A program made the position numbers and the translations under genes. 64,000 nt of DNA from Entoloma clypeatum. Taxonomy: Eukaryota > Basidiomycota > Agaricomycetes > Agaricales > Entolomataceae. Of the stretch, positions 3,932 to 64,000 are shown piece by piece; within the stretch, counting starts at the first letter, position 1; each line of letters opens with the position of its first letter. The notes beneath the pieces were generated by a model. The model worked only from the letters and a program-made list of their open reading frames with translations. It was not told the origin of the DNA and ran no database searches. The stretch spans positions 434,001 through 498,000 of the forward strand of contig OY751487.1 in assembly GCA_963565915.1 (NCBI GenBank), written 5' to 3'.

Positions 3932-4006
3932 GCGAACCAGAGTACCTATATATATATGTGGGAAAAAGTAAGATGTATTTAGAAGTATGTACTAAATATG
4001 GGGGGG

Positions 4007-28353: not shown

Positions 28354-28663
28354 TGTTGAAACTTTTCCCATCATGTAGATTAGATTAGATTAGATTACAT
28401 CATGTGACCTTTACATATCTTCATTACATACTTGTTTGGTTGGTACAAACAGTAGTACGGTATATAAGACCAGGAAACTGTCAATATCAACAAGTTGTCT
28501 CTTGACTCTTAACCAGCTCCATCGCTCTCACCAGCCTCAACCGCTCTCACTAGCCTTACCCCCTCCAAACCATGTAAGTGACCATAGCGGTATCGTAGAG
28601 TACTTCCACTGTAGCTATGTTGCTCAGTACACCTGTGGCTAGCGCCCAGGTGGAACTTCAACA
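28354..28663 (+). repeat. copia-2 5' LTR
   Basis: TGTTGAA to TTCAACA, 310 bp. It contains tandem GATTA units, TATATAA near 28460 (promoter) and a GTAAGT donor at 28574-28579. Confidence 0.95.
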
Positions 28664-29014: not shown

Positions 29015-29027
29015 TTTCATCTAAAAA

Positions 29028-32000: not shown

Positions 32001-33755
32001 GAACCACGAGTACCCACTCCGGAACCCGAGCAAGTACCAGATTGACCAATCAGGGAACGACGAGTTCGGAAGATGCCAGGAAGCATCTATGGGGAAGACA
32101 CTCCAGCGTCTGATCTTGAAAAATTAGATCGAAGACGGAGATTGGGCGGTCAAACGGCATGGATGAATGACCTCCTGATGGAGGCAATATCAGTCCAAGT
32201 TGGCATCGTTGAAATGTCCCATAAAGACATATACCCTCTTCCAAATAAAGAAGACTGGTATGCGGCTGAACATAAAGAGCTAGACATGCTCAAACGCCGC
32301 GGGGTGATCACGGAGCTAGTACCCCTGCCTGCAGGAAGGAAAGCTCTAAGGAACAAATGGGTTTACAACGAAAAGTCCGACGGGCGTCTGAAAGCACGCC
32401 TCGTCGCAAAAGGCTTTTCACAGGTAGAAGGGATCGACTTTGATCAGATCTTCTCACCAGTCGTTAGATATGAAACTGTCCGACTAATACTGGCATTGAC
32501 AGCCCTTGAAGGGTGGTTCATGACACTTTTGGATGTCTCATCAGCCTTCCTCTATGGAACGCTCCGTGAAGTCATTTACATGCGACAACCTGAGGGCTAT
32601 ATAGTAAAAGGGAAAGAACACCTCGTGTACCAACTATTCAAAGCTCTATATGGACTTAAGCAGGCCGCATTAGCCTGGTGGAGGGAACTTGATTCCTCCA
32701 TGAAAAAGCTCGGCTTTGTCCGGCTTCACTCCGATGCGGGAGTGTTCATTCACAAAAGTACCAACGGGGAAATTGTAATCGCCGTCATCTATGTTGACGA
32801 CTCTGCTTTTCTCGGCACAAACCAGGAATATACGCTAGAGAAAAAGAAGGCCTTCATGACCACATGGGAATGTAGGGACCTAGGGCACCTTGTGCCTGAT
32901 GGGGAACCGAAAGAATTTCTCTCTATCCAAATAAGGCAATGCGGGAAACGTATCTTCATCGATCAAGTACCTTACCTTGAGAAAATACTCGAACGAATGG
33001 GGATGAGCGAATCTAACGCCACCCATACCCCACTTCCTACGGGCTACAAACCCATGATGTCCGAAGATGAACCCAATGCAGAACTTCGATCAAAATACCA
33101 ATCCGTCATCGGATCACTTCTATATCTGATGATTGGAACAAGGCCAGACATCTGTTTTGCCGTGATTAAAATGTCGCAGTTTTCCGCAAATCCCACCAAA
33201 CACCATTTAGAAGTGGCTAGGGATATTTGCAGGTATCTGAAGGCGACAAAAAATTACGCAATCATGTATGATGGTGACTCAGGGAAAGGAATCTATGCAT
33301 TCACAGACTCCGACTGGGCGTCAGATGAAAACACGAGGAGGTCTACCACTGGCTTCTTCATATCACTGGCGTCTGGAGCAGTGACATGGGTATCATCAGC
33401 ACAAAAGACCATCGCCCTCTCTTCCACAGAAGCAGAGTATATGGCGTTATCAGACTGCAGTCGCGCAGCAACATGGCTGAGAAGCATGCTTGCCGAACTT
33501 GGAATGCAGATCGGATCAGTACCGATCTACGGAGATAACAACGGCTCCGTCTTTATCGCATCCAACCCTGTAACTGAGAAGCGATCTAAGCACATTGACG
33601 TGCGATTCCATTTCGTCAGAGAAAAAGTCTCCGAAGGGATAATTACGGTCGAATTCATTGAAGGAGTGAACAACCCTGCAGACCTTTTAACTAAGAATCT
33701 GGGAAAAATCCTCTTTTCCAAGTTTATCCCGTACTTCGGATTGATAAAAAACTAG
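29028..33755 (+). pseudogene. copia-2 gag-pol, one internal stop
   Basis: The ATG at 29028 opens 1005 codons to TGA 32043-32045, and the same frame continues to TAG 33753-33755. Gag N-terminus has FDGIDYQSWAEKMKSYL of the copia gag family; no CCHC knuckle is visible. Then protease DSGAS (near 30545), HHCC region, integrase core with VDGGGE and NGRAER, a Pro/Asp/Glu-rich linker holding the stop, RT with intact YVDD (near 32795) and RNase H with STEAEYMAL. Copia-1 has CGA (Arg) where this copy has TGA, so one transition silenced the downstream enzymes. An RT-RNase H product could only arise by readthrough. Confidence 0.95.
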
Positions 33756-33830
33756 GCAAAACAGAGTACCTATATATATATGTGGGAAAAAGTAAGATGT
33801 ATTTAGAAGTATGTACTAAATATGGGGGGG

Positions 33831-34140
33831 TGTTGAAACTTTTCCCATCACATAGATTAGATTAGATTAGATTACATCATGTGACCTTTACATATCTTCA
33901 TTACATACTTGTTTGGTTGGTACAAACAGTAGTACGGTATATAAGACCAGGAAACTGTCAATATCAACAAGTTGTCTCTTGACTCTTAACCAGCTCCATC
34001 GCTCTCACCAGCCTCAACCGCTCTCACTAGCCTTACCCCCTCCAAACCATGTAAGTGACCATAGCGGTATCGTAGAGTACTTCCACTGTAGCTATGTTGC
34101 TCAGTACACCTGTGGCTAGCGCCCAGGTGGAACTTCAACA
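33831..34140 (+). repeat. copia-2 3' LTR
   Basis: 310 bp, TGTTGAA to TTCAACA, followed by the TTGTA duplication. It differs from the 5' LTR near position 20 (CATCACATAG versus CATCATGTAG). Confidence 0.95.
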
Positions 34141-36030: not shown

Positions 36031-36368
36031 CTTGGTAGCACCAAATTTTATTTATTTATTCAAGAAATACTCATAGCTGCTGAAGGTCGTGAAAACATGA
36101 CTGAATATGTACAACAAAGAAAAATCTTGCGTGTCCCCCCTGCATATCCCTTGCCGCACATTGTCTCTTCCGTCACCTGGCAATCCTCGGTTACACTCCT
36201 GCCCCTCATGTCCAGCCTGACGTGACCCCCCCTCCCCTGTGTCTCTCTCAGCTCTTGTCCACACATGTTTCACTTGTCACCCACCTTGTGTCCCACAAGT
36301 CCCTTGCATGCCTGAGGTTGACTGGCCTGTACTTTGGAGCGTCAGCGGCCTTGCAGGTGATGCATCTA

Positions 36369-36977
36369 GTGTTTGAAAGTTTGGTCCGGTCTCGTTTTTG
36401 ACCCTCCAAAAAGAAGAACCGAGACCGGTATAGGTTTCTTAGATTTACCAAAATAGTAAAAACGAGACTGAACCAGTGTGAAACCGGTCATACCAGTTCT
36501 GTTTCTCAGATAGAGTGAAACAAAGACCAGTTCAGACCGGTCTTCACCCGCAGTTGGTATACTCACCAACCGCGGTGTGTTTTTTGAGTTTTTGATGATT
36601 GTTTGACTTTATTTGGGTTTTTGATATCAAAGAATCATCAAAAAATTCAAGATTGAACCGCAGTTTGTCAGTATACCAACTGCGGTTTTTTTATTTTATT
36701 TTTGATGTCAGAAATTGGTCAAAGAATCACTGAAAAACTCAGAGTTTAACTGCAGTTGGTGAGTATACCAACTGTGGGTGACTTTCGGTCAAAGACCGGT
36801 TTAAACTGGTTCAAACCGGTTTTTTAGCGGTCTCTGAAAGTCCTGAAAAAAGACAAACTGGAAACCGGTTGTGATCCAAAACCTTACAGACCGAGACTGC
36901 AGTCCACTCTCAAAACCAGTTCATTACAGTCCGGTTTTGGTCCGGTTATAGGTTCTTGAGACCGAACCTTGAAACAC
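36369..36977. mobile_element. TIR element rich in ACCGGT motifs, TA-flanked
   Basis: Termini GTGTTTGAAAGTTTGGTC and, inverted, GTGTTTCAAGGTTCGGTC, each preceded by TA (36367-36368, 36978-36979). Aligning with the empty arm near 37790 fits a 2-bp TA duplication in length. The interior repeats ACCGGT/GAACCGGT-like words and carries three hairpin-forming segments (36548-36575, 36656-36687, 36750-36777) built on CCGCAGTTGGTATAC. There is no coding region. Related ends occur at 51661 and 56093. Confidence 0.7.
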
Positions 36978-37399
36978 TAGACGCTTACCTGGCCATGCAT
37001 GTCTAATGGCAGGTCCCTGCCTGCTCCTCCCATGCACGCTTCCCATGTGCCTGCTGCCGTTCTCATGTCTCAGGTGCTGTTTCTTGCGCGCCTCCCGCTG
37101 TTCCCCATGAGTCCTGCCATGTTCCCGCTTCCCGCCGTCCAGGAGGAGGAAAGCGGAGGAAGGTGATGGGGGAAGGCAAGAAGATGTGGAGTGGGGGAAC
37201 TCAGTTATAATCAGCAGGTTCCAGGCCCAGGCACCAATGCTGAAATATCGGAACCTGCCGATCCTGGCAACAGCCGAAAGTCAAAGAATATTCTAAGTCC
37301 ATCATGTCTACCCCCATCACCTTCCTCTGCCTCCCTCCTCCTTGGTCAATGCCTCCTCCCTCTGTTCAAATGAGGGCCACCGACCCCCCTAAATAGGTA

Positions 37400-37760
37400 A
37401 GTACCATGCATCCACATCAGAACATGACCACTGATGAGACATGTGAGAATGGCGGGAATCATATGAAGCATGGCATGCATGACACAAGGACGGCAGGGAA
37501 TGGCACGGGACACATGAGAATGGCAGGGGAACTGGACAGAACATGTGAGAACGGTATGGCACACGCGAGGAACAGCCAAGAGAGTACAGGAACGGCGGGA
37601 GGCATGTGAGAAATGGCACCTGAGATGCCAGAACACGGCGGGACTCGCGAGATTGGCACAGAATGACAGGACTCGCAAGGAACAGCGGGAGGCGCACAAG
37701 AAACAGCACCCAAGACACAAGAATGGCGGCAGGCACATGGGAAGCGTGTGTGGGAGGAGC
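37400..37760. repeat. Degenerate minisatellite
   Basis: Loose tandem copies of a 25-30 bp theme (GAGAATGGC, GGAACAGCGGGAGGC, ACATGTGAGAA), with variable spacing. Open frames on both strands here are by-products of the repeat. Confidence 0.5.
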
Positions 37761-37905
37761 AGGCAGGGACCTGCCGTTAGACACACATGGCCAGGTAAGC
37801 ACCCTGACGTGTCACCTGCAAGGCCGCTGATGCTCCAAAGTACAGGCCAGTCCACCTCAGGTGTGCGAGGGACTTGCAGGACACGAGGTGGGTGATCACC
37901 TGCGT

Positions 37906-41519: not shown

Positions 41520-44500
41520 CAGAGCGACGTGAGCGGACCCGGTTTGTTGGGATAAGCAGAATGAAAGTCGGAGACAAGCTCAGGGGCGTTTTCCAGTTCA
41601 TTGGCTGGTAGCCAAGAGAATTCTTCATCAGTGTTTTCATATCCTTACCAACAGACGAAATATAGTAGCTTGCAGCTACGTCGTCAGTCGATCTTTGAGT
41701 CGACAATTTCAGCAATCTCGTACTCAAGTTCTCCGTTGATGTCAATCGGAGGAGGCGGAGGTTGGGTCTGATTTGGAATGGTGTTTGGAGTTGCAGGTTC
41801 AAGCATGGAGACGTGGTAGACAGGGTGAACACCACAGAATGTGTCAGGGAGTCGGAGGGTAAAGGAGTGTGTGCCAGGTTGTGCAATGATCTCATATGGT
41901 CCCAAGTACTTTTCTGAGAGTTTCTTGGATGGGCGTGTTGTGCGGAAGAACTGTGCTTTGACAAAAACCTGTTGTCCGACAGAGAACATCGGAGCTGCGA
42001 TCCAATTATTGTTGGAGGACTTCTGGTAACGTCGTTGAGTGTCGGAGATGGTGGCTTTCAGTTCTTGGTGAAGTTTGTCTAAGTCGGTCATGAAGGATTG
42101 GGCTCGGGAAGAGGCGAGGTCTCGTTCTGGGTGAACAGTAATGTTCGGATGGTAACCCTTGTTAGCAAAGAAGGGAGATATGCCAGTGTTAGCACTAGGT
42201 GCGTTGTTGTACGCAAACTCCGCAATCAGAAGGAGAGCGGACCAGTTGTCCTGTTGGTAGTTGCAGAATATCCACAAGCACTGTTCGAGGGTCTGGTTAG
42301 TGCGTTCGGTTTGGCCATCGCCTGCGGGGTGGTAACCAGAGGTAAAGTGGAGGGTCATGTTTAGAGCCTTTCCGAGAGATCAGAAGAATGAGACAAATTC
42401 AGGGCCGTGGTCGGAGGTGACATGTTTGGGGATGCTGTGTTTAGAGAAGACATGTAATACAAAGAGTACAGCAAGGTCTTCGGAGGTGCAGTGAATGGTT
42501 GTCGGAATGAAGATACTTTGCTTCATTAATCGGTCAACGATAACAAGGATGGAGTCAAAGTTGTCGGAGGTTGGAAGGGTCTCGATGAAATCCATTGAGA
42601 TAGAATTCCAAGGACATTCAGGGATTGGGAGCTGTTTGAGTAGGCCGTAAGGCTTGTGTCCTTGTGGCTTCGATCACATGCAAGTGGTACATGACTTGCA
42701 ATAGTGTTTGACAAAATCTCGTATTCTGGGCCAAATATAATCGCGCTGAATGAGACTAAGTGCCTTGTTCTGACCTGGGTGTCCAGCAAGCATATGATTG
42801 TGCTTGTGCTGTAGGACTCGGAGTCGGAGGTCATCAGAGTCGGGAACATATATCTGATTGTCATGTCGGAGGAAACCATTGGGGTCGAGAGACCAGTGGG
42901 GTTTAGGATCTTTGGAAAGAGTGTCGTAAAGGGTGTCGGAAGGGAGTGCTGTGAGTATGTTGTGGTGGAGCTTCTCTGTGTCCATGATAATGGTTGCACG
43001 GAGGACATGCTCAAGGAGTTGAGTCACGCGAACTGAAGCGGAGAGTTGTTCTTGCAAAAAGACTGGTCAGAGGTTGGTCGGATTGATGTCGACATAGTCG
43101 CTATTTCCCCCTTTAGGGTAGACAGCCCAATGTCTAGTTAGAGAGTTGGGTTTAGTTCCCAATCGGCTGGGGCGGAATCAGATGACGAGGTTGAACTGAG
43201 AAAGGTATTCCGACCATCGGACTTGTCGGCATGAAAGAACTTTGGTGGTGGCAAAATACTCGAGATTTTTGTGGTCGGTAACGACATCAATCGGAGTACC
43301 GGAGCCTTCGAGGTAATGGTGCCAAATTTTAAATGCTTTGTAGATGGCAAGAAGTTCCTTATTGTGGGTGTCATAGTTTACTTTGGGGGCCGTGAAGGTG
43401 CAGGAATGGAATGCGACAGGGTGGACTTCATTGTTGGAGGTGACAATTGACAAAATAGCCACTAGGGCATAGTCAGATGCGTCGGTTTCGACAATTATCA
43501 GAGAGTCAGGGATCCAGTGTGTCAGGATCGGAGCGGTGGTAAATGCCTTCTTCAGGTCATTAAAGGAGGTTCAAGCATCATCGGAGAACAGCCAAGTGGC
43601 ATGTTTCCTGGTTAAACGAGTGAGTGGAATAGTGATGTTGGAATAGAATGGAATGAAATGTCGGTAAAAGTTTGCAAAACCCAAAAAGGACTGGACATCC
43701 TTCACTCTGCGCGGTTCAGGCCAATCCTGAATAATCTTGACTTTTGCTTCCGACATTTTGAGTCCGTCGGGAGAAAGGATAAATCCAAGATATTCTACAG
43801 TTTTGGCAGAGAAGTGGCACTTGTTGGCGCGGGCGTAAAGACCATGTTGTCGGAGTCATCGGAGGACTTCTCAGACATGTTTTTTGTGTTCCTCGGGGTT
43901 GTCGGAGTAGATCAGGATGTCGTCGAGGTAAATGGTAATGCAGTTGTCCAGAAGGTCGGAGAAGATGTTGTTCATGAAACGTTGGAAGGCTGCAGGTGCG
44001 TTAGACAATCCACATGGCATTACTAACCATTCAAACGATCCATAGCGAGTGCGGAATGCAGTTTTTCATTCATCACCTTCAGCGATGCGGACTAGGTGGT
44101 ATGCATGTCGGAGGTCTATGGTGGTATAAACACATGCTTTTCCGGCAGTGGCTAAGAGGTCGGAGATGAGCGGAAGTGGGTATCGGTCCTTCTTTGTGAT
44201 TTTGTTCAGGCGGCCTCGGTAGTCGACACAAAGTCGGAGTGATCCATCTTTCTTTCGGACAAAGAGGATCGGAGCGCTGTGAGGTGAACTAGAAGGTTTG
44301 ATAAAACCGATATTGAGATGCTCGTCGATGAAGTCTCGGAGGGATCCAAGTTCGGATTGCGAGAGTGAGTACATCGGACCAATCGGAGGGGAAGTTCCTT
44401 CCTCCAATTGATCTTGAGATTGTAGGGTGGGGTGCAAGGGTGTTGGCTTTTTTCTTACTGAATACATCAGCAAAATCGTGGTATTCCTTGGGTATGCCAG

Positions 44501-45133
44501 AGAGATCGGGAGCGTTGTCGGAGACGGACGCGGAATTGGCGGAGATGTTGGAGAGGTGACCGCGGAAAGTGTATGCCCCAGGAGCTTTACATGCATGCAG
44601 ATATGCAGCTGCATTGACCATGGTGATCTGTGGCAGGTCGGAGGTGTTCGGAGTGAGCAGATCGGAGGTGCCCATCAGAGAGGGCGGACACTGTGGAGGT
44701 GGCAGAGCTGCCTCAGCAGTGACGTCGGAGTCGGACTCGGAGTGTCGGGTAACGTAGAACGGAATAAGATACTGCCCAATACCCAGTCAATCAACAGATT
44801 GTAGCAGGTGAGCCAGTTGTGTCCTAGAACCAAATTACAAGACAAATCAAGGGTTGTCACATAAGACGCAATGGTCAGAAGTTCACCAGAAGGGAATCGG
44901 AGAGGAAGATCAATAAATTGTGTGATATAAGTATTTGAAGAACCATCAAAAAGTTTCAAAACCATAGGTGAAGGAATCGGAGTCGGAGATAAGTTTAAAG
45001 AAGAAATAAACCTGGTATCTGCGAAGCAATGTGTAGAACCAGAATCAATAAGAGTCTTTATCAGAAGAGAATCGGAAAAGGTCAGAGATATCAAATCAAT
45101 ACATAGAGAGTTCAGATTTGAGAGAGCGGACAC
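41520..45133 (-). pseudogene. gypsy-B chromovirus pol, multiply stopped
   Basis: Reading leftward: protease with [12 protein letters not shown] near 45060; RT with [16 protein letters not shown] and [11 protein letters not shown] (near 43915); RNase H with ETDASDYAL and DHKNLEYF; integrase with H-H-C-C zinc, MDFIETLP, SDHGPEFV and GQTERTNQTLEQ; and a C-terminal chromodomain (LEYEIAEIVDSKID, then FVCW and GYENTDEEFSWLP). Stops break the frame near 44066, 43571, 43178, 42674, 42380 and 41684. Most are TGA where the family has Arg (FF-R-SLG, CM-R-SKP, LVI-R-FRPG) or Trp (GDE-W-KTAF). One chromodomain stop (TAA near 41645) is not a simple transition. A purine tract is also seen at the RNase H/integrase border (43093). 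Confidence 0.9.
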
Positions 45134-45226
45134 ATTGAGTCAGAGGGTTTCCAAAGGTGCACGAAAGGAGTCAATGCAATCCCCAGTACGTGCTGGAATC
45201 TGAGGACTGCTTACTATTTTTTTGAC

Positions 45227-45913
45227 TCAGTCGTCTTCTCCCGATTTGTCCTCAGCTTGGGCCGCGTGAGCCTTTGCTTTGGTGTTAGAAGACAATTTCT
45301 TTGAGCAGTCGGAAGCCCGATGACCAACATTGCCACAAAACATGCATAAATTATTGTCAAATCGTTGTTGGCGTTCTTGGGGAGTTAATTTCCCATCTTT
45401 GCCAAGTTTGTTGGAGAGGGCGGATTTCGGAGAGGTGGATGACAATTTTTGTTGTTGTTGCGAGTTGGGTTTAGACAACGAGTTGTTATTGGAGGATGAT
45501 GAAGTGGGGGTCTGTTTCTTGTCAGATTTGTTGGATTTCGGAGTAGATTTGTTGGAGGAGCGCAATTTCTCATGTTGACATTCCCAGTAGCGGGCATCAA
45601 TGTTATGGGCCATTATCTTCAACTTGGCCAGAGTCTTAGGTTTGGGGTAGGTCCCTAAAACATCTTTGATACATTCCACTAAACCGGTGTAGTACCGATA
45701 TCGGAGTGCGCCATCATCCCACTGCGTGCGAGCAGAAAGACATTTGAAGTCCACATTGTAACGTAGGATCTTCTGATTGTCGCACATCCGAAGGTGATCC
45801 AGACTATCCTCTGCTTCTCCGGTTGGATGGATAGTTCTGAATTCGGATTGGAGGATGTGCACAAAGGCGGACCGATCATCCAACCAGACAGAGTTGTCGT
45901 TGGACTCTCCCAA
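45227..45913 (-). pseudogene. gypsy-B gag, 5'-truncated (228 aa)
   Basis: An open frame with the C-terminal half of a retrotransposon gag domain, a Ser/Asn/Gln-rich linker and a CCHC zinc knuckle (CMFCGNVGHRASDC), ending in an acidic tail. It lies just upstream of pol in its own orientation. Homology and frame give out near 45960, so the 5' LTR and gag N-terminus are missing. Confidence 0.85.
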
Positions 45914-45970
45914 GAGGGTGGGCTAAAACCATTCGAGCGCGGTTCCTCAGAGGTACTGTACAATTTCAAT

Positions 45971-46499
45971 CAATTTGTCAGTCACGTGTCACAGGGATCT
46001 GGAAAACACCGGAATGTCACGGTTGTCACGTTTCCCTGAGCCCAGTGACAAATTCGGCATGCAGGATTGCCAAAAATGGCACCAAAATGCAACCGAAATG
46101 ATGAAAAATCGGTCACTTTTGGGTCAATGTCATGGAAATTTTCACCCCCAACAAAACACCTGATCTTCCCACAACTTAAGCCAAATATGCCTTGTTGATC
46201 CAGTGCCTCAACAAGGCAAAACTGCCTTGAAAGCACTAAATGCCTGACACCAGCATTAAATCATTGCTTAATTCTGAGCCTCCAGTGTAACGAGTGGGAT
46301 TGGCATGGTCATCAGTTGGTCATTGGAGTTACCGTATTAGGCTGAGCACAGCCGCTTATGTAACAAAAGCCTTTTACCTCACACAACATTGTACAGCCGA
46401 TACCAGATTTCAGTCAAGCTTACCTTGTTCTGTGAGATTGAGGGCTTTTCATGTAACTCTTGTTACATTTTTTAAGCTTTCCTTAACTGCTATTACCTG
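45971..46499. other. Interval right of gypsy-B, nothing recognised
   Basis: No domain, repeat or hairpin density above background. It holds the truncation point of gypsy-B and the left approach to the hairpin array. Confidence 0.5.
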
Positions 46500-46949
46500 C
46501 CACAGGGGAACACCCCCATTGCTATCAGCTCTCTAGCTGCACCAACCCCATCTGGCCCAGAGGCTTCACTTTGAAGCCTCCTCTTTTGCTTAGTGCCTAG
46601 CTGTGTCACCTACACACAGCTTATGGCCTCTTTTGAGTTGTCTGGCCCCCAGGAGTTCACTCAGAGCTCCCTTTTTTGGGATGAGCTGGCACCTGTGCTG
46701 CCAGCTGGCATTTCCTTATATGGAAATGGCTCATTTCCAAGCCATTCTGTCATGTCGAACATGTCGAGAAGCCTCTCAAATGACTTGAGGTCCAGTTGTC
46801 ACCAACTGGAGACCTCGTCTACATATTCTGCAAGTACTACATTACATGTAGCAAAGTCTACTAGGGTGGACTTGACTGCCTCGTTGCAGTCAACACATGT
46901 TGAACCGAGAATTTGGTATTGAGATACCATTCGCAGAGTTGCGAAGGAG

Positions 46950-47258
46950 ATGCCGTGGCTGGACCACAGGCTAATCATGGATTTCGAGATGGAACTATGG
47001 TCCATCGTTCCGACGGTTATCAATAATGACCGCCTCAAGTGTATGAGCTATGAAGCTCATAGATTCACTCTCGCAAGTGTGAATGAGGTGTATGGTCATG
47101 ATACACTATGCAACGATAGAGAGTATATTGACCACTTCAAGTGGTCATTTGTCCATGAACTCGGTATGGAGTTGGACAGGTGCACAAAGCCATATGCACC
47201 TATAGAGGCTGATAAACCTCTAGCATATTACAAGGACCTCTATAGAGAAGTGGTCTGA
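46950..47258 (+). CDS. Open frame inside the hairpin array (102 aa), doubtful
   Basis: ATG at 46950. The product (LIMDFEMELWSIVPTVINND, FKWSFVHELGMELDR) looks protein-like but matches nothing I recognise. A TGA separates it from the next frame, which begins 20 nt later. It may be the remnant of a gene in which the hairpins arose, or chance. Confidence 0.25.
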   Translation: MPWLDHRLIMDFEMELWSIVPTVINNDRLKCMSYEAHRFTLASVNEVYGHDTLCNDREYIDHFKWSFVHELGMELDRCTKPYAPIEADKPLAYYKDLYREVV

Positions 47259-47279
47259 CATGTCGAGCATGTCTTTAAG

Positions 47280-48149
47280 ATGAAGAGGAAGGCTGCGAAG
47301 TCTTCCAAAACAAACACAAACATCCCAAAGGCTCATGAAGAACCTTCTAACATCCATGTGGAAAGTTCGCAACACGTTTATCATGTTGCACGTGGAGAAA
47401 TGGCTCATCATGAACCATCTGAACCTCTCAACAGTCGGAGAGGTGACTCAGAATATCACTCTGTTCAACAGAACGAAGATATGAAGACAGTTATATCTTC
47501 AAACGGAGAAGCCGCGCAACACCAAGATATTGTCGTGGAAAGAAACCATGAGGCTTATGAGCCTCATCAACTTCTGAACCACGGAGATGGTGTTGACCAC
47601 CACTCCAAAGTGGATCGTGAAGAAGTGAAGACTATTAAGTCTTCAATTGAAACTTCAATAAGTCCACAACATGTAGTCGATGGACTAGAATGGAAGACTT
47701 CTAAGCCTTCCAACTCTCTCAAAGAGTCTAAAGAACAGAACGGAAACATTTCCGTTAATATGAATCAAGGAACGGAGGTTAAAATAACCTCCTCCAGAGT
47801 CAATGAAGAGACTCCGGAAATCATTGCTGAATTGAAAACGGCGAAGGAAGACAACAGCAGTTGTCTCAAAATATGGAGTAAAGACTCCATAGGTCCCGTT
47901 TGCAAAAGAGACGTAGACAGTCTCGACGGAACACAAGTTCCGTCAACTTCAAAAGAAGGTCTTGAAATTCAAAGACCTTTATCAAAGGCAGATCAACTTC
48001 CTTCCTGGCGGTCGGAATGGGTTGTTAAATCCCCACCAACCCATAGAACACGGCCACCAACAATGGAAACAAGATTTCCGAGGGTACCCTTATCCTCAAC
48101 AGAAGAATCAGCACCACATCTGTGGTCCGAAAGACACCGTCAACTGTGA
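47280..48149 (+). CDS. Open frame inside the hairpin array (289 aa), doubtful
   Basis: ATG at 47280 to TGA 48147-48149. The product is very hydrophilic (Glu, Ser, Lys, His, Asn) with no domain. The DNA is packed with hairpins whose arms ignore codon phase. Length is notable for such DNA, yet codon choice gives no clear coding signal by eye. Confidence 0.25.
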   Translation: MKRKAAKSSKTNTNIPKAHEEPSNIHVESSQHVYHVARGEMAHHEPSEPLNSRRGDSEYHSVQQNEDMKTVISSNGEAAQHQDIVVERNHEAYEPHQLLNHGDGVDHHSKVDREEVKTIKSSIETSISPQHVVDGLEWKTSKPSNSLKESKEQNGNISVNMNQGTEVKITSSRVNEETPEIIAELKTAKEDNSSCLKIWSKDSIGPVCKRDVDSLDGTQVPSTSKEGLEIQRPLSKADQLPSWRSEWVVKSPPTHRTRPPTMETRFPRVPLSSTEESAPHLWSERHRQL

Positions 48150-51100
48150 ATGCATGGCAAGAGCCCAAAATGGGCTGGAAGTTCTCTGAACTTCCAAAGT
48201 TCACAAAAACCAAATTGTCACCCACATGAAAATCATAGCCGAGAGGGTTCTAATAACCCTCAAGATGAAAAGATCTCATTGCCCAGAAATGATGGGTCAA
48301 ATAGACCACATTGGACTGCAAGTAACAAACAAACAACAGGTTTGTTATCGATGACAACAAGATTGTCGAAATAAATGCAAACATCTGGGTCAACATAACC
48401 CAGGCAAGAATGATATTCGACAGCGAAATATTCACCGTCAAAGAGACGATGAGAAAGAGAGACAGAGTACAGAAGACTCTGTCACAGTAGAGAAGAAGAG
48501 ACGGCGACGAAAACATCGCCATCAACGTTGCAAGAGTAGTGAAAGTCGACAACATGTGTCAACTGACAACGAGAGCACAAAATTGTGCTCTAAGTGTAAT
48601 GACAAGATTGTTTGCTTCATAATGAAGCAGAGTGGTCAAGCCATGACCACTGGAGAACGAACTTGTGAAGTTCGTTTGGTGCTTCAAATAGTCGCACCTG
48701 AAAAACAGGATGTCCGCAAGTCGGAACATCAAAAGCACAAGAAACAGGACGAAAGGAATGTCATCCAAGAGAGTAGAAACTCTGCGGCAACATGTGCCAC
48801 AACAATGACAGAAAATGTCATTAAAGGTCAGAAAATAGACGACAAAGATGTCATCGGCAATAGAGAGGATCTGGCAGCTTTAGTAGCTGCCTCAGCAACA
48901 AATATAGTTGTCGCAAATGACGAAGTGGATGGCGTGAAAGTCGTCCATGGAAATAATATAATTACAGCACAAAGTGCTGAGATAGCAGCGACAAATGTCA
49001 CTGAAGTTGCAAAGAAAGACGACAAAGTTGTCATCTGCAATAAATCAACAATAGATGGCAAGGATGCCATCTGCGAAAGTTGAGAACCAGCAGCTACAGT
49101 AGCAGCTACAGCAACAACAATTGTTGTTGCAAGTGATGAAATGGATGATATAAGGATCATCCATAGAGAAATTAAAGTTGCGGCAATAGATGTCAAAACT
49201 GTAGCAACAAATGTCGCTAAGGTCATGAAAGTAGACAACAAAGTTATTGTCATCTGTGACGGTTTGTTGAAAGCTGTGGTAACAGAGACCACATTGGAAT
49301 CAAATCACGCCAAACATAAAGTTGGCAACAGGCAGCCCACTAAAAAAGTGGTCACCACGAAATGACAAGAGGAAGAACAAAAGTGTCCTCTGTAAAACCT
49401 GAGGTAACTATGGTTGCCTCAAGAGATCAAATCTTGCCAAGAATAAAGTTGGCGACATGCAGGGCACTGAAAAGTCCTGCCAAAGGAGACGAGGGAGGAC
49501 CACAAGTGTCCTCCATATAATTTGTAATGGATGGAGACTCATAGAGACCCATCTGACAGAATAGACGGACACCAAGTCTGTCATTCCCACATTCTGTGGA
49601 GGATAGAAATTGTCCTCCAAGACAATTGTAGTGTCTCAAAGACCTCAAACCCCCCCAATAATTTGTTTTGTTGTGAATGAGGCAAGAAGGGGGGAAAGTG
49701 GGGATTCCAAGAAACCTATGGAATATTTTGGAAGGGGGCAGAGGAGGGGACACCTTCCCTGACGAATAGGTGACAACGGCACCTATATCATACCACATAA
49801 TCCCACAACACGAGATTTTTCCCTTTCCAATTTATGGTCATAAAGGCTGTACTATGAAATAGTCGCAAAAAGACTATAGATGGCAATAGCGCCATCTACA
49901 ATACATGAGGAAGGTACCATGTACAGTACATGAGGAAGGTACCATGTACCTTCTGGCAATAAAATAGAAAGGACGGCGTGAAGTCGAAGAACCAACACTG
50001 TCGAAAGTAAAGTAGAAATGACAGTGTGTCGTTTATGATACAAAAATGACAATATGTTATTTAAGAAAATGAAGTTGACGATAACAATGTGTTGTCATCT
50101 CATATAGTACCAGTAACGAAGACTGGTATAGTTGTCATTCATGTGAATGACATGGGGATCAATGTGAACCCCAAAAATGAACTGACAATACAGTGAGCTA
50201 AGCTCGCCGAAGAAAGTATAGGTGGCAAAAGATCTTGCCAACAAAAATGCCTATAGTTCATTGAACTAAGAGTCGTGAACCACAACATGGGGATTATATG
50301 TCCCCATACAACATGTACATAGATGGCATATGAAGATACCATCATACAAAAGGCATGAAAGATGTTGCCAAAGAAAGATAGAAACGACAACATGTCATTT
50401 AGGATAGGTTCATGTGAACATGGGGATTCTCGCAAACCCCAGAAATGAACAAACGACATGGCGAGCTAAGCTTGTCAAAGATAATATACTTGGCGAAAGT
50501 TTCGCCAATGAAAAATGAACATATGTTGTCCGTTAAATGCAAAGTTGTGGACCACGACTTGGGGAATATAAGCCCCAATATAAAGATGGCATACACAGAT
50601 ACCATCATCTGGAAGAATAGAAAAGGTCATTGCAAACGACGAGGGATAACTTATCCCCAGAGGATGAGTGAGGGAAATTGCCTCACAGGAACCCTGATGT
50701 GCTTCGTCGTAGTATGAAGCAAGAAGGGGAGGAAATGGGAACATAGTTGTCCCATGAATCCACCCCAAAAACGGAACAAGCAGGTTTAAATAAACCTGCA
50801 CAGATAGAGATGACTGTGAAACATGAGAACCAGTGGGAACGAAAGGTGTCATTCCCACAATAGTCGTCAAACGACAGGTGGTACAACAGCACCACTTTGT
50901 AATATACAAGGTGTCAATACACCTTGCACATTTGAAGAAAATGTGCCACGAAACCATGATGAGAATGACCAAAGATGTGGTCGTCATCAACCATGGAGGA
51001 GTCAAGAGACCCTTGGTTATGATAGAATGGTTAACCAAATTGATTTGGTTAAATAGAGATATAGGACGACACCAGTCATTTTCAGTAACAATTACCGAAC

Positions 51101-51660
51101 AGCATGAAAATGCCACAGAGAGGTCAAGAAGGTTCAATAGAACCTCCGAAAGCTTCAGGCTCATCTGAGCCTGAGATGGTGATAAATACTGACACGAAGT
51201 CAGTACAAGAGAAAAGAACATTGGACAACAATGAATGTCGTCCAGAAAACGGACCTGGGGAATTCAAAAGGTCTCCCCAACAAAACTGGAGATGTAATAT
51301 CATCCAGTTTCCAAAACTACAACACATTTGGAAAAGAAAAAGTCGCGAAACATGACAGGGGGAAATGATTGTCCCCAACTGGCAAAAAGAGGGTCAACTC
51401 GGGACCCTTGAGATATGCTTCAAGAGTAGGAATGAAGCAAGAAGGGGAGGAAATGGGGTAGCAATTGCCCCAGCATCTCCCACTGATCTCGCGAACGACA
51501 CAAGATGTCATTCTAGTTGAAGAAATTGTGATTGAATTGACGGCGCCGATGGCACTGTCCATGTACTCTAATTGGGTACAAGGTATCCCGACATACTCAA
51601 CAAATACCAAGCAGGTACAAAGGAACCTGCATCGCGTCGCGTTGATACCTCAACAATCAG

Positions 51661-52550
51661 TAGTGTTCGAGGGTTCAGTTCGGTTCGGTTTTTTGCCTCC
51701 AAGAGGGATGGACCGAGACCGAGACCGGTCTTTTGATACCACAAAAACATAAAAAACCGGACCGGACCGTACAGGACCGGTCCATCACACCCACAGAGGG
51801 TGGACCGAACTGGTCTGCACCGGTCTGAACCGGTTTTGTATTATATATTGTGTCTAAATATATACACACTGTGTGTAATGTCAGTGGGCGTGAGTGGGAG
51901 GGTGTTGCGCGCGAGTTGGAAGGCATTAGGCACAAAAGGGGGGGCTGTTGGGCATGGGTCGCGGCAGCTGGGCACAAGAGGGGGCTGTAGGGCTTGAAGG
52001 AAACATGTTGCGCGTGAAAGGGGGGCATTGGCGCAAGTTGGAGGGCGTTAGGCAGGAAGGAAGGGCGATGCACGCGAAGGGGGGGTGTTGCATGCGAGTT
52101 GGAGGTCGCCTTGACGCCGTTGGGCGCTAGAGGGAACCGTTCGAGGGCGTTGGGCGTGAGTCGTGGTCGTTGGGCGTGAGTGGACGCCGTTGGGCGTTAG
52201 AGGGAGCCGTTGGGCACAAGTGGACGCCGTTGGGCACAAGTGGATGCCGTTGGGCGCGAGTGGGAGGCCGTTGGGCATTAGAGGGAGCCATTGGGCACAA
52301 GTTGTGGTCGTTGGGCACGAGTGGACGCCGTTGGGCATTAGAGGGAGCTGTTGGGCACATTGGGCATGAGTGAACACCGTTGGGCATGAGTGGGAGGCAG
52401 TTGGGCATTAGAGGGGGCTGTTGGGCGCTATAGGGGGTCGTTGTGCACGAGGGGCGGGCATTGGGGGGGGGAAGTGGCTGGGTGGAGTGAAGGTGGGGGA
52501 TAAAAAAAGTGTGGGAACGTTGGGCTGGCTGTCGACTTATGTATGGTTCG
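51661..52550. mobile_element. Left part of a TIR element with a GTTGGGC minisatellite
   Basis: Starts TA-GTGTTCGAGGGTTCAG, matching inverted the end at about 56077-56093. ACCGGT-type words follow to about 51840, then a minisatellite. Sequence from about 52340 to 52550 recurs, slightly diverged, at about 54440-54653. The element stops abruptly at 52550, where gypsy-A pol begins after a TCG overlap. The missing right part (from ACTTTCGGC on) is found at 54654-56093. Confidence 0.6.
51880..52480. repeat. GTTGGGC minisatellite
   Basis: Degenerate 20-24 bp units of the form CCGTTGGGCAC(A/G)AGTGGA alternate with CGTTGGGC(A/G)TTAGAGGGAG. Open frames on both strands are by-products. A shorter run occurs at 54436-54545 and 63299-63408. 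Confidence 0.85.
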
Positions 52551-53123
52551 CGCAGCACTGACAAAGGCAAAAGACGACATGGCGCGATACTACAACTAGC
52601 ATTGGAGCACCACTCCGACATTCCGCCCGGGGGACAAGGTCTTTTTAGACTCATCAGACCTCAAAACCACCCGACCCACAAAAAAACTTGCACATCGGTA
52701 CGTAGGCCCTTTCCCAGTGGTCCGACCTGTCGGAACACATGCCTACAAACTTTGCCTTCCCCCTTCCATGTCCCGTGTTCACCCAGCCTTCCATGTCGTC
52801 AAACTTTCACTAGTTCCCGACGACCCTTTCCGATGCCAAGTCCGCTCCCCTCCACCTCCAACGGTAGTCGGAGAAGAATTGGAGTACAATGTTGAAAACC
52901 TCTTGGACAGCCGACTGCATTGAGGCAAGCTTCAATTCTTGGTCAAATGGAAGGGATATGGCTACGAAGAGAATTCCTGGGAAGCAGAAGACAATGTCCA
53001 CGCTCCGCGCCTAGTCTGCGACTTCTACCGATGTCATCTGGGAGCTCCGCGGCGGATCGCCGCCGCGATATTCGACTCATTTTGCCTGACACGTCGAGAC
53101 GCCGTGCCTTGAAGGGGGGGTGA
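52551..53123 (+). pseudogene. gypsy-A pol 3' end (left copy): integrase tail and chromodomain
   Basis: Encodes the end of integrase (FRPGDKVFLDSSDLKTTRPTKKLAHRY) and a chromodomain (LEYNVENLLDSRLH, stop, GKLQFLVKWKGYGYEENSWEAEDN). The stop at 52921-52923 is TGA where Arg/Lys is expected. A GAAGGGGGGG tract at 53111-53120 precedes the LTR. This is the tail of an otherwise deleted upstream element copy. Confidence 0.85.
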
Positions 53124-53556
53124 TGTAAGGGCAACCACTTTCACTTTTCACTTTTCCTTTCCTCTCTTCCTTTCCTTTCTATTCCACCATCTCTGACATC
53201 CTCCGATCGTATCCGCTGTCTCCAACATCTTATCTGCCTCTCCGCATCCGACGACTCCGCCCCCATCCGCTACTCCGCATGTCAGATCGCAGGTACTATC
53301 ATTCATCTTGTTTCCATTCATCCTTCATCGCTACTCCCGATCATTACTCATCATTCATGTGTCTCGTTTTATCTCTTATTTCATATCTCATTTTACTATT
53401 TATCTCGCTAGCTTGCAGGGGAATCCTTAGAACTTTCTCTTTGGATCTCCCTTGCAAGGTGTGTGTTGTATTACTTATTAGACTGCTCAATCTAAACTTC
53501 GGATCTCCCTTGCAAGTATCTGAGTTTGAGTCTTGGATCGTAAGGTCGCCCTTACA
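53124..53556 (+). repeat. gypsy-A LTR, left copy (433 bp)
   Basis: Perfect 9-bp terminal inverted repeat TGTAAGGGC/GCCCTTACA. TATTTAT at 53397-53403 lies about 32 bp before AGAACTTTCT (53429-53438), the inferred start of R. Identical by eye to 61987-62419. Confidence 0.9.
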
Positions 53557-53558
53557 GT

Positions 53559-53568
53559 AGAAAGTTCT
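53559..53568 (+). promoter_or_regulatory. Putative self-primer site of gypsy-A
   Basis: AGAAAGTTCT, 2 nt beyond the LTR, is the exact reverse complement of AGAACTTTCT at 53429-53438 inside the LTR. In Tf1/sushi chromoviruses the mRNA 5' end folds back onto such a site to prime reverse transcription. Confidence 0.55.
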
Positions 53569-53717
53569 CTTCTAATTGGACCGGGTCCGATTGCATCGTT
53601 GTCACGATTCCGCGCTTTGGAGCAGCTTCGTCCGCGTCTGACTCCGATACATCTCACACCCCTTCCAATTCTTCTAATTGCCTCTCCGTAACTGGTGATT
53701 CTGCTCCGCGCATAGTA

Positions 53718-54427
53718 ATGGATGACCTCAATCGCCTTGAACAGCTCGAGCACGAGTTCCAGGAACAACATCAAACTCTCGCTGATATCTCGACTCAACT
53801 TGACCAACTCCTCCTCGCCTTCAACGCAATTCCTGCCCCAGCTCCGCCACCTATCCCACCTGCTCCCGCACCCGCTATTATACCCGCTCCGCTTGCTCTG
53901 GCCAATCGGGGTGTGCGTCCAGCAAAACCTGCCAATCCGTCGGACTTCAATGGATCGTGTGCAAATGGCTGGACCTTTCTAAACTCCTGTGAATTGTTTA
54001 TGGTGGACTTCCGTGCAGTCTTTACAGCGGAGTTCACTCCAAAGAATGAGGAACAGGATGCGAGACTGATCCTCGAAGGAGAATCCTATTATCAAGGTCA
54101 ACGGGATGTCGAGACCTATATTGACGAGTTCAAAGACTACATTGACAAAGCAGGCTATCACGAGGATACCAACATCGTACTCAAATTCCACCATGGTCTC
54201 CGTTCCGACATTCAGAACGAGATTGCCACCCTGACCCACGGACTGCCTGCGGATGACAACCCCGATGAGTGGTACTCTGCAGCACGAGTCAATGACGACA
54301 ATAGGATTGCCAACAAAGCCTTCAAAGCCACTGCTCCGATCCGCACCTCCGCCTTCCGCAACGTTGTCGGACCAAGAGTACCTGGCACCTCAGTATTCCC
54401 TCGCCCCTACATTCCATTCACTCCGTG
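53718..54427 (+). pseudogene. gypsy-A gag N-terminal part (left copy)
   Basis: ATG at 53718. A coiled-coil start (MDDLNRLEQLEHEFQEQHQ), a Pro/Ala-rich stretch and the retrotransposon gag domain (FTAEFTPKNEEQDARLILEGESYYQGQRDVETYIDEFK written here only in part: YIDEFKDYIDKAGY, LKFHHGLRSDIQNEI). The segment between CELF and VDFRAVF seems shorter than usual for the family, a possible internal deletion. Coding homology ends near 54427 where minisatellite DNA starts; the gag C-terminus resumes at about 56115. Confidence 0.8.
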
Positions 54428-56095
54428 TACAGCTCCGCTTGGAGCTGTTGGGCACGTTGGGCGTGAGTGGGAGGCAGTTGGGCGTTAGAGGGGGCCGTTG
54501 GGCATTAGTCGACCCCGTTGGGCGCTATAGGGGGTCGTTGTGCACGAGGGGTGGGCATTGGGGGGGGGGGAAGTGGCTGGGTGGAGTGAAGGTGGGGGAT
54601 AAAAAAAGTGTGGGAACGTTGGGCTGGCTGTCGACTTATGTATGGTTCGACTTTCGGCAATTGCTGAGAGTGCTTGGCATCAATGCCGAGCAACGCGCGT
54701 CGTTGAAACTCGCGCCTTCAATGCCCAATCCGTGGCACTGTAAGTCCTAAAAATAGTTTGTAACTTATGTAGAGATACTTAGAAGCTAATAGTAAGCATA
54801 TAACCAGTTAAATATATGAGCTATGTAGGTAGAATTCTGAAATGATGCATCAAAACAATGGCACACTGTAAATCGTGATCAACAGGGCATCATCATGGGT
54901 TTTCTCAAACACAAAAACAACCTTTTCTTACTTCCTCCCTTCCACAACCACTGTAGTCTATATGTACTGTATATATACCATTGTAACATTGTATGTAAAT
55001 CTACTCAGACCATTCAAATCAAGCCCAAGGACTTAATAAGGTGAATAGAAGCAAAATAGGTCGAAAATTTGACCAAAAAATTTTGTTTCAGCTTTGGATT
55101 CTCCTCATTCAGGGGACCTCACAGCACATCTGTTTTTCAAATTTGGTGCATTCATTATGGAGATATAACACTTTTACTGAAATATGCACATTTCATCATT
55201 TCTATCTTATCTAGAGATCTAAAAATTATACAAGGTGTTTCAGAAGGTGAATACATATATATTGATGAGTTCTATCATGTTAAACTATTATTAGATCATG
55301 AGCACCACGTGCGCCTGCACGATGCATTTGCACATTGTTTACTGTTGTTTGGTGTAAAGCGTCGCATCGCTATATGCTCAAATCCGTGGCGAAAATTCAT
55401 GAAATAAATACATATTTATTAACATATGATACTCTGGTACATAATTGATATAGTCTGTAAGCTTACTTCCTCCTGTGTAGCCATATTAAGGAGAAATGCG
55501 ATGTTTTTTGAGTTTGTTTACATATATTTGACACATTTGATGCACACGTGTCACGCATCATCCAACGTTGAATCGACGCATCCACCCATTGCTTGCTCCG
55601 CAATGAGAGGCACACAGATATAACAAAAATAACACAGTAATAATAGTCAGATACAACAAAAATAACACTGTAATCATATGTTTTAGCTATGTTTTCACCA
55701 TGTTTCACTCAATTCTTAACCTTTGTGACTCTGAGCAAGAGTTTATATACAAGCTAGAAATGTATTCCACTCAGTTGTAGCTTCAAAACAAGCCTTAGAC
55801 CAATGAAATTGGACTATAAATATCTAGAATATTATGCAGATTACTGAAAAATCTCCAAAAATTGTAGAATATTAGGGGGGGGGTTGGAGGTATATCCCAA
55901 AGGGCAAAAAGACCAGTCTAGACCTGTTTAGACCGGTCTTTTTGCGGTCTAAGTCAAAAAAAAAATCTAGACTGAACTGCAGTCTAAATTTTCTAAAACG
56001 TATAGACCTTAGACCGCGGTTCAGTCCAACATGGTCTATTTTTCAGTTCAGTTTAGTCCAGTTCAGGTCTATGTAGACTGAACCTTCGAACACTG
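54428..56095. mobile_element. Right part of the TIR/minisatellite element inserted in gypsy-A gag
   Basis: Starts within the GTTGGGC minisatellite, continues through about 1.2 kb of AT-rich DNA without a credible gene (54660-55880), then ACCGGT-related words (55905-56060), and ends with CTGAACCTTCGAACACT, the inverted counterpart of the terminus at 51661. The left terminus is missing here. It separates the two halves of gag. Confidence 0.6.
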
Positions 56096-61300: not shown

Positions 61301-61980
61301 ATTGACACCGGCCGCCATCCGCGCATGGGATTCGAACCTCGCGAGAAGCGGACGGAGATCGAGGCGGTAGCGGATTTCAGCCAGCGGATGAAGTCTGCTC
61401 TAGAGGAGGCTCGCGCAGCACTGACAAAGGCAAAAGACGACATGGCGCGATACTACAACTAGCATTGGAGCACCACTCCGACATTCCGCCCGGGGGACAA
61501 GGTCTTTTTAGACTCATCAGACCTCAAAACCACCCGACCCACAAAAAAACTTGCACATCGGTACGTAGGCCCTTTCCCAGTGGTCCGACCTGTCGGAACA
61601 CATGCCTACAAACTTTGCCTTCCCCCTTCCATGTCCCGTGTTCACCCAGCCTTCCATGTCGTCAAACTTTCACTAGTTCCCGACGACCCTTTCCGATGCC
61701 AAGTCCGCTCCCCTCCACCTCCAACGGTAGTCGGAGAAGAATTGGAGTACAATGTTGAAAACCTCTTGGACAGCCGACTGCATTGAGGCAAGCTTCAATT
61801 CTTGGTCAAATGGAAGGGATATGGCTACGAAGAGAATTCCTGGGAAGCAGAAGACAATGTCCACGCTCCGCGCCTAGTCTGCGACTTCTACCGATGTCAT
61901 CTGGGAGCTCCGCGGCGGATCGCCGCCGCGATATTCGACTCATTTTGCCTGACACGTCGAGACGCCGTGCCTTGAAGGGG
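58344..61980 (+). pseudogene. gypsy-A chromovirus pol, multiply interrupted
   Basis: Protease LLDSGATGSFI near 58370; an acidic linker; RT with [16 protein letters not shown], a one-base deletion near 59310, FFSLTNSPSTFQ and YLDDILLFTE near 59580; RNase H with EADSSDFATRAVLSQ and DHKNLEYF; integrase with H-H-C-C zinc, VDFITELP, SDRGPQFVTKF and SDGQTERVNQGLEQ; chromodomain LEYNVENLLDSRLH...FLVKWKGYG. Stops at 59436-59438 (TGA for Trp in GDEWKA), 59805-59807 (TGA), 61460-61462 (TAG, probably CAG) and 61784-61786 (TGA) are transition-type. The integrase-chromodomain end is the same sequence as at 52551-53123. Confidence 0.92.
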
Positions 61981-61986
61981 GGGTGA

Positions 61987-62419
61987 TGTAAGGGCAACCA
62001 CTTTCACTTTTCACTTTTCCTTTCCTCTCTTCCTTTCCTTTCTATTCCACCATCTCTGACATCCTCCGATCGTATCCGCTGTCTCCAACATCTTATCTGC
62101 CTCTCCGCATCCGACGACTCCGCCCCCATCCGCTACTCCGCATGTCAGATCGCAGGTACTATCATTCATCTTGTTTCCATTCATCCTTCATCGCTACTCC
62201 CGATCATTACTCATCATTCATGTGTCTCGTTTTATCTCTTATTTCATATCTCATTTTACTATTTATCTCGCTAGCTTGCAGGGGAATCCTTAGAACTTTC
62301 TCTTTGGATCTCCCTTGCAAGGTGTGTGTTGTATTACTTATTAGACTGCTCAATCTAAACTTCGGATCTCCCTTGCAAGTATCTGAGTTTGAGTCTTGGA
62401 TCGTAAGGTCGCCCTTACA
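61987..62419 (+). repeat. gypsy-A LTR, right copy (433 bp)
   Basis: TGTAAGGGC to GCCCTTACA, preceded by a GAAGGGGGGG tract. It serves both as 3' LTR of the element starting at 53124 and as 5' LTR of the next tandem copy. Confidence 0.9.
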
Positions 62420-62580
62420 GTAGAAAGTTCTCTTCTAATTGGACCGGGTCCGATTGCATCGTTGTCACGATTCCGCGCTTTGGAGCAGCTTCGTCCGCGT
62501 CTGACTCCGATACATCTCACACCCCTTCCAATTCTTCTAATTGCCTCTCCGTAACTGGTGATTCTGCTCCGCGCATAGTA

Positions 62581-63290
62581 ATGGATGACCTCAATCGCCT
62601 TGAACAGCTCGAGCACGAGTTCCAGGAACAACATCAAACTCTCGCTGATATCTCGACTCAACTTGACCAACTCCTCCTCGCCTTCAACGCAATTCCTGCC
62701 CCAGCTCCGCCACCTATCCCACCTGCTCCCGCACCCGCTATTATACCCGCTCCGCTTGCTCTGGCCAATCGGGGTGTGCGTCCAGCAAAACCTGCCAATC
62801 CGTCGGACTTCAATGGATCGTGTGCAAATGGCTGGACCTTTCTAAACTCCTGTGAATTGTTTATGGTGGACTTCCGTGCAGTCTTTACAGCGGAGTTCAC
62901 TCCAAAGAATGAGGAACAGGATGCGAGACTGATCCTCGAAGGAGAATCCTATTATCAAGGTCAACGGGATGTCGAGACCTATATTGACGAGTTCAAAGAC
63001 TACATTGACAAAGCAGGCTATCACGAGGATACCAACATCGTACTCAAATTCCACCATGGTCTCCGTTCCGACATTCAGAACGAGATTGCCACCCTGACCC
63101 ACGGACTGCCTGCGGATGACAACCCCGATGAGTGGTACTCTGCAGCACGAGTCAATGACGACAATAGGATTGCCAACAAAGCCTTCAAAGCCACTGCTCC
63201 GATCCGCACCTCCGCCTTCCGCAACGTTGTCGGACCAAGAGTACCTGGCACCTCAGTATTCCCTCGCCCCTACATTCCATTCACTCCGTG
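62581..63290 (+). pseudogene. gypsy-A gag N-terminal part (right copy)
   Basis: Same sequence as 53718-54427 and likewise broken by the minisatellite element, which shows that the insertion predates the tandem duplication. Confidence 0.8.
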
Positions 63291-64000
63291 TACAGCTCCG
63301 CTTGGAGCTGTTGGGCACGTTGGGCGTGAGTGGGAGGCAGTTGGGCGTTAGAGGGGGCCGTTGGGCATTAGTCGACCCCGTTGGGCGCTATAGGGGGTCG
63401 TTGTGCACGAGGGGTGGGCATTGGGGGGGGGGGAAGTGGCTGGGTGGAGTGAAGGTGGGGGATAAAAAAAGTGTGGGAACGTTGGGCTGGCTGTCGACTT
63501 ATGTATGGTTCGACTTTCGGCAATTGCTGAGAGTGCTTGGCATCAATGCCGAGCAACGCGCGTCGTTGAAACTCGCGCCTTCAATGCCCAATCCGTGGCA
63601 CTGTAAGTCCTAAAAATAGTTTGTAACTTATGTAGAGATACTTAGAAGCTAATAGTAAGCATATAACCAGTTAAATATATGAGCTATGTAGGTAGAATTC
63701 TGAAATGATGCATCAAAACAATGGCACACTGTAAATCGTGATCAACAGGGCATCATCATGGGTTTTCTCAAACACAAAAACAACCTTTTCTTACTTCCTC
63801 CCTTCCACAACCACTGTAGTCTATATGTACTGTATATATACCATTGTAACATTGTATGTAAATCTACTCAGACCATTCAAATCAAGCCCAAGGACTTAAT
63901 AAGGTGAATAGAAGCAAAATAGGTCGAAAATTTGACCAAAAAATTTTGTTTCAGCTTTGGATTCTCCTCATTCAGGGGACCTCACAGCACATCTGTTTTT
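63291..64000. mobile_element. TIR/minisatellite element, second tandem copy (partial)
   Basis: Repeats 54428-55137 exactly by eye, including the GTTGGGC units. Cut by the window end. Confidence 0.7.

Follow-up and report, generated by a model that had tools for sequence, protein, structure and literature searches.

An array of short hairpins fills the interior of a non-autonomous long-terminal-repeat element in an agaric mushroom

Introduction

How does a stretch of DNA become packed with short hairpins that differ from one another in sequence? The locus that raises this question lies in the agaric mushroom Entoloma clypeatum, in a window of 64,000 nucleotides (nt) of contig OY751487.1 (assembly GCA_963565915.1, positions 434,001 to 498,000, forward strand); positions below are those of the window unless another sequence is named. 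A first-pass annotation had marked an array of tightly packed hairpins at 46500-51640 and had offered as explanations snap-back template switching by a polymerase, a highly structured RNA gene, a mobile element carrying folded ends in series, and hairpins formed inside an old gene. Random mutation is a poor route to perfect hairpins, so their origin is an old question. We find good support for placing the array in the interior of a dispersed, non-autonomous family of the long terminal repeat (LTR) retrotransposon type, and we weigh whether its hairpins were written by a copying process or kept by selection.

Results

Perfect inverted pairs with arms of at least 7 nt and loops of 2-12 nt were counted in 46500-51640 and in 20 dinucleotide shuffles of it. 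The array contains 59 such pairs against a shuffle mean of 3.3 (s.d. 2.5, maximum 11), a mean that agrees with the 3-4 pairs expected by chance at first pass. The earlier tally of about 30 pairs was too low. With the same loops, arms of at least 8 occur in 37 pairs (1.05 in shuffles), of at least 9 in 10 (0 in shuffles) and of at least 10 in a single pair (0.05 in shuffles); no pair in this interval has an arm of 11 or more. Each of the six 1-kb bins from 46001 to 52000 holds 8-13 pairs, compared with 0-4 in the window's other 58 bins, and density is 10.8/kb in the element copies described below versus 1.33/kb in 225 kb outside them. Folding of both strands in sliding windows of 200 nt, which had been proposed together with the comparison with shuffles and flanks, gave mean z scores of -4.0 (+ strand) and -3.7 (- strand) over 25 windows inside the array and of -0.35 and -0.39 over 52 windows outside. 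There is virtually no chance that base composition or accident explains the hairpins: only the A-rich strand speaks for it, and the shuffles and the low density outside the copies refute it.

The genome of the window (60.08 Mb, 20 contigs) was searched with the array DNA, which returned 66 matches of 74-100% identity, grouped into the window and 25 other places. The claim that the units share no sequence is thus true between hairpins and untrue between copies of the element. Thirty stretches around the matches were compared with window positions 44000-56000. Copies reaching the left edge have a common border at 46284-46286, and the window copy ceases to match the others at 51660; the edges first given to the array, 46500 and 51640, are not those of the element, which starts at 46286 and runs past the window's end. 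At its start lies a 5' LTR of 182 bp (46286-46467, + strand, TGTAAC...GTTACA), and its 3' partner is found in the same orientation 19.6 kb downstream (C5:499883-500062), 97% identical over 180 bp. Between the two, at 51660/51661, about 13.3 kb of other DNA has been inserted, and the element resumes beyond the window at C5:498962. Its own length is about 7.1 kb, made up of 5375 bp up to 51660 and some 1.8 kb by the spacing in copy L033. The 5-bp target-site duplication TCCAG precedes the 5' repeat (46281-46285, + strand) and recurs after the 3' repeat in L039 (C5 near 500065). Target duplications fit in both copies for which the two ends were compared, as TCCAG in the window/L039 and as CCTCT in a copy on contig C10 that L011 and L033 cover at its two ends. 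The terminal repeat has 33 matches in the genome, the window's own included. Contig C20 of this genome (65,243 bp) codes for an ATP6 of 254 residues, whose best named relative among the 120 listed of 5963 is that of Hypsizygus marmoreus (95% identical), with Collybia, Singerocybe, Lyophyllum and Leucopaxillus following at 90-92%; by this protein the host is an agaric, probably in or close to the Lyophyllaceae.

Other LTR-type features are partly present. A polypurine tract, GAAGGGGGATA, stands 5' of the 3' repeat in L036 and L039, and with one or few changes in L033 and L035. The leader after the 5' repeat (46468-46500, + strand) has no canonical TGG start of a tRNA primer-binding site, as judged by eye only and with no tRNA library compared, and the neighbouring Ty3-like LTR likewise shows none by eye. 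For self-priming of the element the best match was 7 nt only. No gag-pol domain reached the Pfam cut-off in the frames scanned from the window copy and other copies (four window frames, five frames of other copies, seven more, of which one was a repeat, and seven of L033), and the element is therefore non-autonomous at best. Taken together, these features make the host of the array very probably an LTR element, one whose general kind is known but whose interior is highly unusual. The proposal of a mobile element carrying folded ends in series was right about mobility, given the LTR-type structure and 5-bp target duplications, and wrong about the ends, as the hairpins fill the interior.

In the window part of the array (46500-51660, + strand), 124-125 hairpin units are present in at least two copies. 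Outer spans peak at 19-21 nt, and shorter arms tend towards longer loops: arms of 10 go with loops of 0-2, arms of 9 mostly with 1-3, arms of 8 mostly with 3-7, and arms of 6 with two loop groups, 7-10 and 2-4. When the window part is taken together with the tail of L033, 37 of 56 runs of at least 8 pairs have an outer span of 19-22. Counted without overlap, with arms of at least 7 and spans of 14-40, that span accounts for 47/73 hairpins in the array and 23/57 elsewhere in the window; a preference for about 20 nt is thus real, though not absolute. On an 8-pair score, 84 units reach 7/8, compared with 7-8 units in four shuffles. The units show no regular spacing or fixed pitch. In L033 the array extends, by eye, to about 70 nt short of the 3' repeat. 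The 182-bp repeat itself has no inverted run of at least 6 (span up to 26), which says little, since the array rate of 11.4 runs of at least 7 per kb predicts only about 2 in a sequence of that length. Within the array are two older internal duplications with hairpins in both halves, 48834-49037 with 49050-49256 (+ strand, 68% identical) and 50138-50345 with 50409-50608 (+ strand, 70% identical); such duplications are 68-80% identical.

Two open frames overlap the array. Frame A (46575-48371, + strand, first ATG at 46623) has 599 codons and covers the array's 5' third; it contains three in-frame stops in the window copy, whereas the remaining + frames have 23 and 48 and the - frames 25-32. Two of these three stops are lacking in the majority of copies spanning them; in copy L015, 482 codons of the frame are open. 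Frame B (48150-49480, + strand) has eight stops in 443 codons in the window and is open for 434 codons in copy L019. Neither frame has a Pfam match over the cut-off or a known domain, no homologue of frame A was found at E 0.01 among 3119 candidates, and changes at non-CpG sites among copies show no purifying selection. A structure prediction of the window's 102-residue frame piece was uninformative (mean predicted local distance difference test score, pLDDT, 47). The unit centres do keep a relation to codon phase. Those in frame A favour the 1-1/2-3 phase (25, 11, 10; p 0.01) and those in frame B the 3-3 phase (17, 9, 4; p 0.01, or 14, 9, 4 and p 0.06 without the overlap with frame A), while the 3' part of the array has no preference (17, 17, 16). 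From these features the frames were probably coding in an ancestor, and present-day coding is not claimed; in this form the suggestion of an old gene survives as to the open frame and fails as to selection, homologue and domain.

The arms of the hairpins differ in composition. In 69 stems, purines make up 60.4% of the 5' arms (332/550 bases), and stems with a purine-rich 5' arm outnumber those with a purine-poor one by 46 to 16 (sign p 0.0002). In 49 control stems from the rest of the window the 5' arms are 49.9% purine and the split is 22 to 25. Within the window part, the purine share of 5' arms (59.5%) is matched by that of the stretches between hairpins (58.5%), the pattern that a 5' arm acting as template would leave.

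The stems pair by Watson-Crick rules and do not favour G.T over A.C. The 124 units give 988 majority-state pairs: 878 Watson-Crick, 24 G.T, 41 A.C and 45 other. One-mismatch hairpins in array columns of 25 copies, which are not independent, gave G.T 124 versus A.C 170, and single sequences gave 11 versus 22 in the window and 1 versus 7 in the L033 tail. A further count (G.T 135 versus A.C 138) was set aside and replaced by that from array columns, as its spans included nested foreign DNA. A selected RNA strand should accept G.U, so the lack of a G.T excess speaks for a copying origin. Stable four-base loops (GNRA, UNCG or CUUG) make up 0 of 15 on the + strand, with one GNRA on the - strand, and no Rfam family matched at gathering score when 4227 models were run over the whole window. 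These results disfavour a highly structured RNA gene.

When copies are compared, Watson-Crick pairing survives 74 of 84 double changes in stems called in the window; in slid controls it survives 6-21 of 44-64. Since a CpG lies opposite another CpG in the facing arm, both can decay into a matched pair, and about half of the changed pair cells (496/949) touch CpG-prone columns. Without these columns, covarying pairs number 7 of 648 (1-8 in four slid controls) and, in a second count, 6 of 923 (3-12); counted by cells, pairing persists in 15 of 18 double changes outside CpG versus 1-5 of 9-23, from few sites. The comparison of arms for compensatory changes, run here among copies, thus largely recovers CpG decay, and such change was dropped as proof of selection because by sites it stands at chance level. 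Lower divergence in stems (6.0% versus 10.3-10.5%) was not used either, as the comparison is biased by the choice of stems that are perfect in the window; the counts of shared and private variants given in the Discussion are a fairer measure. Judged from their sequence, the sampled copies look inactive and now decaying.

About 650 bp of the array's 3' part recurs at about 80% identity in a second carrier, a 1.7-kb DNA element with inverted repeats present in three copies (L040:1493-3202, L041:1420-3118 and L042:1311-3023), and a genome search shows two further places. It starts CCCAGTGAAAA and ends TTTTGACTGGG, and 7-bp duplications flank all three copies by eye. On sequence grounds this reads as a capture across classes, in either direction. 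Of 230 stem pairs in family A, three of seven double changes are paired (0-1 of 5-10 slid) and 59 pairs have single breaks; the 87 pairs of family B show no double change and 17 single breaks. Between the two families stems decay rather than being kept.

The surroundings contain further repeats. The sequence that starts at the break point (51661-51908) also adjoins part of the array in L020, and in L016, L023 and L027 it is found some 45-550 nt away from array ends, at differing array positions; this second element may favour the hairpin array as a landing site. A direct repeat of 2593 bp, 99.96% identical (52545-55137 and 61408-64000), holds gag and, from 53124, a Ty3-like LTR, TGTAAGGGC...GCCCTTACA, which points to a single young Ty3-like element in two copies, tandem or nested. 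The purine tract of that element, CTTGAAGGGGG, is similar to that of the hairpin element. A Copia-type element at 28354-34140, with 310-bp LTRs 99.4% identical and frames of 1005 and 560 codons, is a young insertion, and a second stretch (3-4316) is 96.5% identical. Other palindromic stretches, at 36277-37895 (inverted repeats of 41-138 bp) and L041:4296-4703, are unlike the short-hairpin array. Degenerate tandem repeats of about 20 bp around TTGGGC occupy 51963-52465 and 54437-54562.

Discussion

We put at roughly 0.45 the probability that the hairpins arose as the 5' arm was copied by strand switching, a reading that fits better than selection for a folded RNA. As the element is copied, the growing plus strand would fold back or switch strand, and the freshly made 5' arm would be copied into a 3' arm. 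The product would be a Watson-Crick hairpin some 20 nt long, and many such events during the life of an active lineage could fill the interior. The element would need the reverse transcriptase and integrase of a partner; a candidate is the adjacent Ty3-like element, whose purine tract and termini (TGTAA...TTACA) are similar. We know of no directional strand-copying hypermutation of this sort described for mobile elements; if true, it rewrites an element into hairpins of about 20 nt. That retroelement copying machinery habitually folds back every few dozen bases, each time copying some 8 bases of fresh plus strand, is a more specific claim and looks doubtful. There are precedents for the single step: template switching can yield perfect hairpins in one event (PMC8794818), and fold-back insertions of 5-34 bp arise at yeast breaks (PMC11724301).

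Several observations weigh against strand-switching copying. Simple snap-back models give no reason to expect a span of ~20 nt, and asymmetric stems are also ordinary in rRNA (PMC8794818). G-over-C skew is 0.26 in 5' arms versus 0.06 between hairpins, more than the background predicts, so the match to plain copying of the background is not perfect. Snap-back template switching is the best-supported of the origins first proposed, yet no birth of a hairpin by snap-back was seen by eye among 71 indel classes of at least 4 nt between the window and the copies, 54 of them confined to a single locus. At 49902-49949 the window copy has gained a hairpin through a tandem duplication of 25 nt, and near 50957 it alone, of the loci that could be compared at that place, lacks two hairpins. 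Shared, older non-CpG variants are fewer in stems (128/1950 paired versus 211/2508 unpaired; p 0.02), and with stems called in three rows they fall to 70/1436 (p 3e-5), under a stricter call that favours invariant columns; private variants show no significant difference (14.3% versus 15.8%; p 0.18, or 0.06 and 0.13 with stricter calls). Across four internal duplications, pairing survives in 14 of 18 double changes, compared with 1-3 of 8-12 slid; 10 of the 14 involve CpG, and without CpG 4 of 6 are paired versus 0-1 of 1-7 in slid controls. In single sequences of seven duplications the figure is 12 of 17 versus 1-2 of 14-17. Read from the sequences, these patterns are a weak sign that selection or conversion maintained the stems on an older time scale.

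Maintenance by selection would mean that a folded nucleic acid, either a compact transcript or single-stranded cDNA, had a use in packaging, for stability or as protection, comparable to viruses whose RNA is structured throughout the genome. The very low folding energy of both strands would follow; the mild scarcity of shared variants in stems and the pairing kept between internal duplicates would fit too, and stems of 8 bp with loops of 3-7 nt are of a size common among functional hairpins. We nevertheless consider this explanation somewhat unlikely. G.T is not favoured over A.C in any of the four counts, and the small surplus of A.C would at most point to the minus strand; stable tetraloops are absent from the + strand and number one on the other; covariation by sites is at chance level once CpG-prone columns are removed, and stems do not clearly covary between families A and B. 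The pairing of the internal duplicates also fits the conversion of quasi-palindromes, in which imperfect pairs born by chance or duplication are made perfect by strand switching during replication, a process that also accounts for Watson-Crick exactness without a G.T excess. It has been proposed for nematomorph mitochondrial genes, where conversion is argued from the near-absence of imperfect repeats (PMC6649704). In the hairpin element, by contrast, 110 of the 988 majority-state pairs (about 11%) are mismatched, so correction is at best weak now, and family B shows decay rather than correction; as the origin of the array it is improbable.

The peak of outer spans at 19-21 nt, together with the symmetry of the strands, could also suggest dyad-symmetric sites of about 20 bp for a structure-reading enzyme, like the attC sites of integrons. 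Loops share no motif by eye, spacing is irregular, and we know of no enzyme of this kind in fungi; the explanation is very unlikely. What makes the family informative is that, with more than 120 hairpins in many copies, internal duplications and a sister segment in a DNA transposon, it is a record in which copying can be separated from selection. If copying is the answer, a reverse transcriptase or host polymerase has a strong directional error mode; if selection is, the element is a mobile RNA of extreme structure.

The first-pass annotation knew of no named element of this design. Among the literature matches listed, titles and abstract openings show no LTR element with an interior hairpin array. 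In its predicted folding along the whole length the element resembles RNA viruses with genome-scale ordered RNA structure. Those viruses use G.U pairs, and unlike them the element has two strands that behave alike. Large retrotransposon derivatives (LARDs) have LTRs kilobases long. The hairpin element has LTRs of 182 bp and a core that is large and partly open, and so lacks the long LTRs and large non-coding core that mark a LARD. LARDs and terminal-repeat retrotransposons in miniature (TRIMs) are LTR elements without gag-pol that are thought to spread by a partner's enzymes and are said to specify conserved RNA secondary structure (PMC7215508). The hairpin element is like them in that no gag-pol domain was found and a partner's enzymes are presumed; it differs in setting its short LTRs around an interior of about 6.8 kb made of ~20-nt hairpins and two orphan frames, and the excerpt of PMC7215508 describes no hairpin arrays for LARDs.

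The palindromes in coding genes of nematomorph mitochondria (PMC6649704) are, like the array, Watson-Crick inverted repeats in open frames, and frame A (25/46 units) favours the pairing phase that PMC6649704 finds least constraining. Those palindromes are perfect and reach 284 bp, whereas arms in the hairpin element stop at 10; the element is moreover a nuclear retroelement whose array also fills parts without a long frame, and its frame B favours another phase. Hairpins made by template switching in rRNA and other RNA genes (PMC8794818) offer the remaining comparison. They lie in RNA genes and pass through G-U intermediates, whereas the element carries more than 120 hairpins with no G.U excess; the two have in common perfect stems, short loops and asymmetry between the arms.

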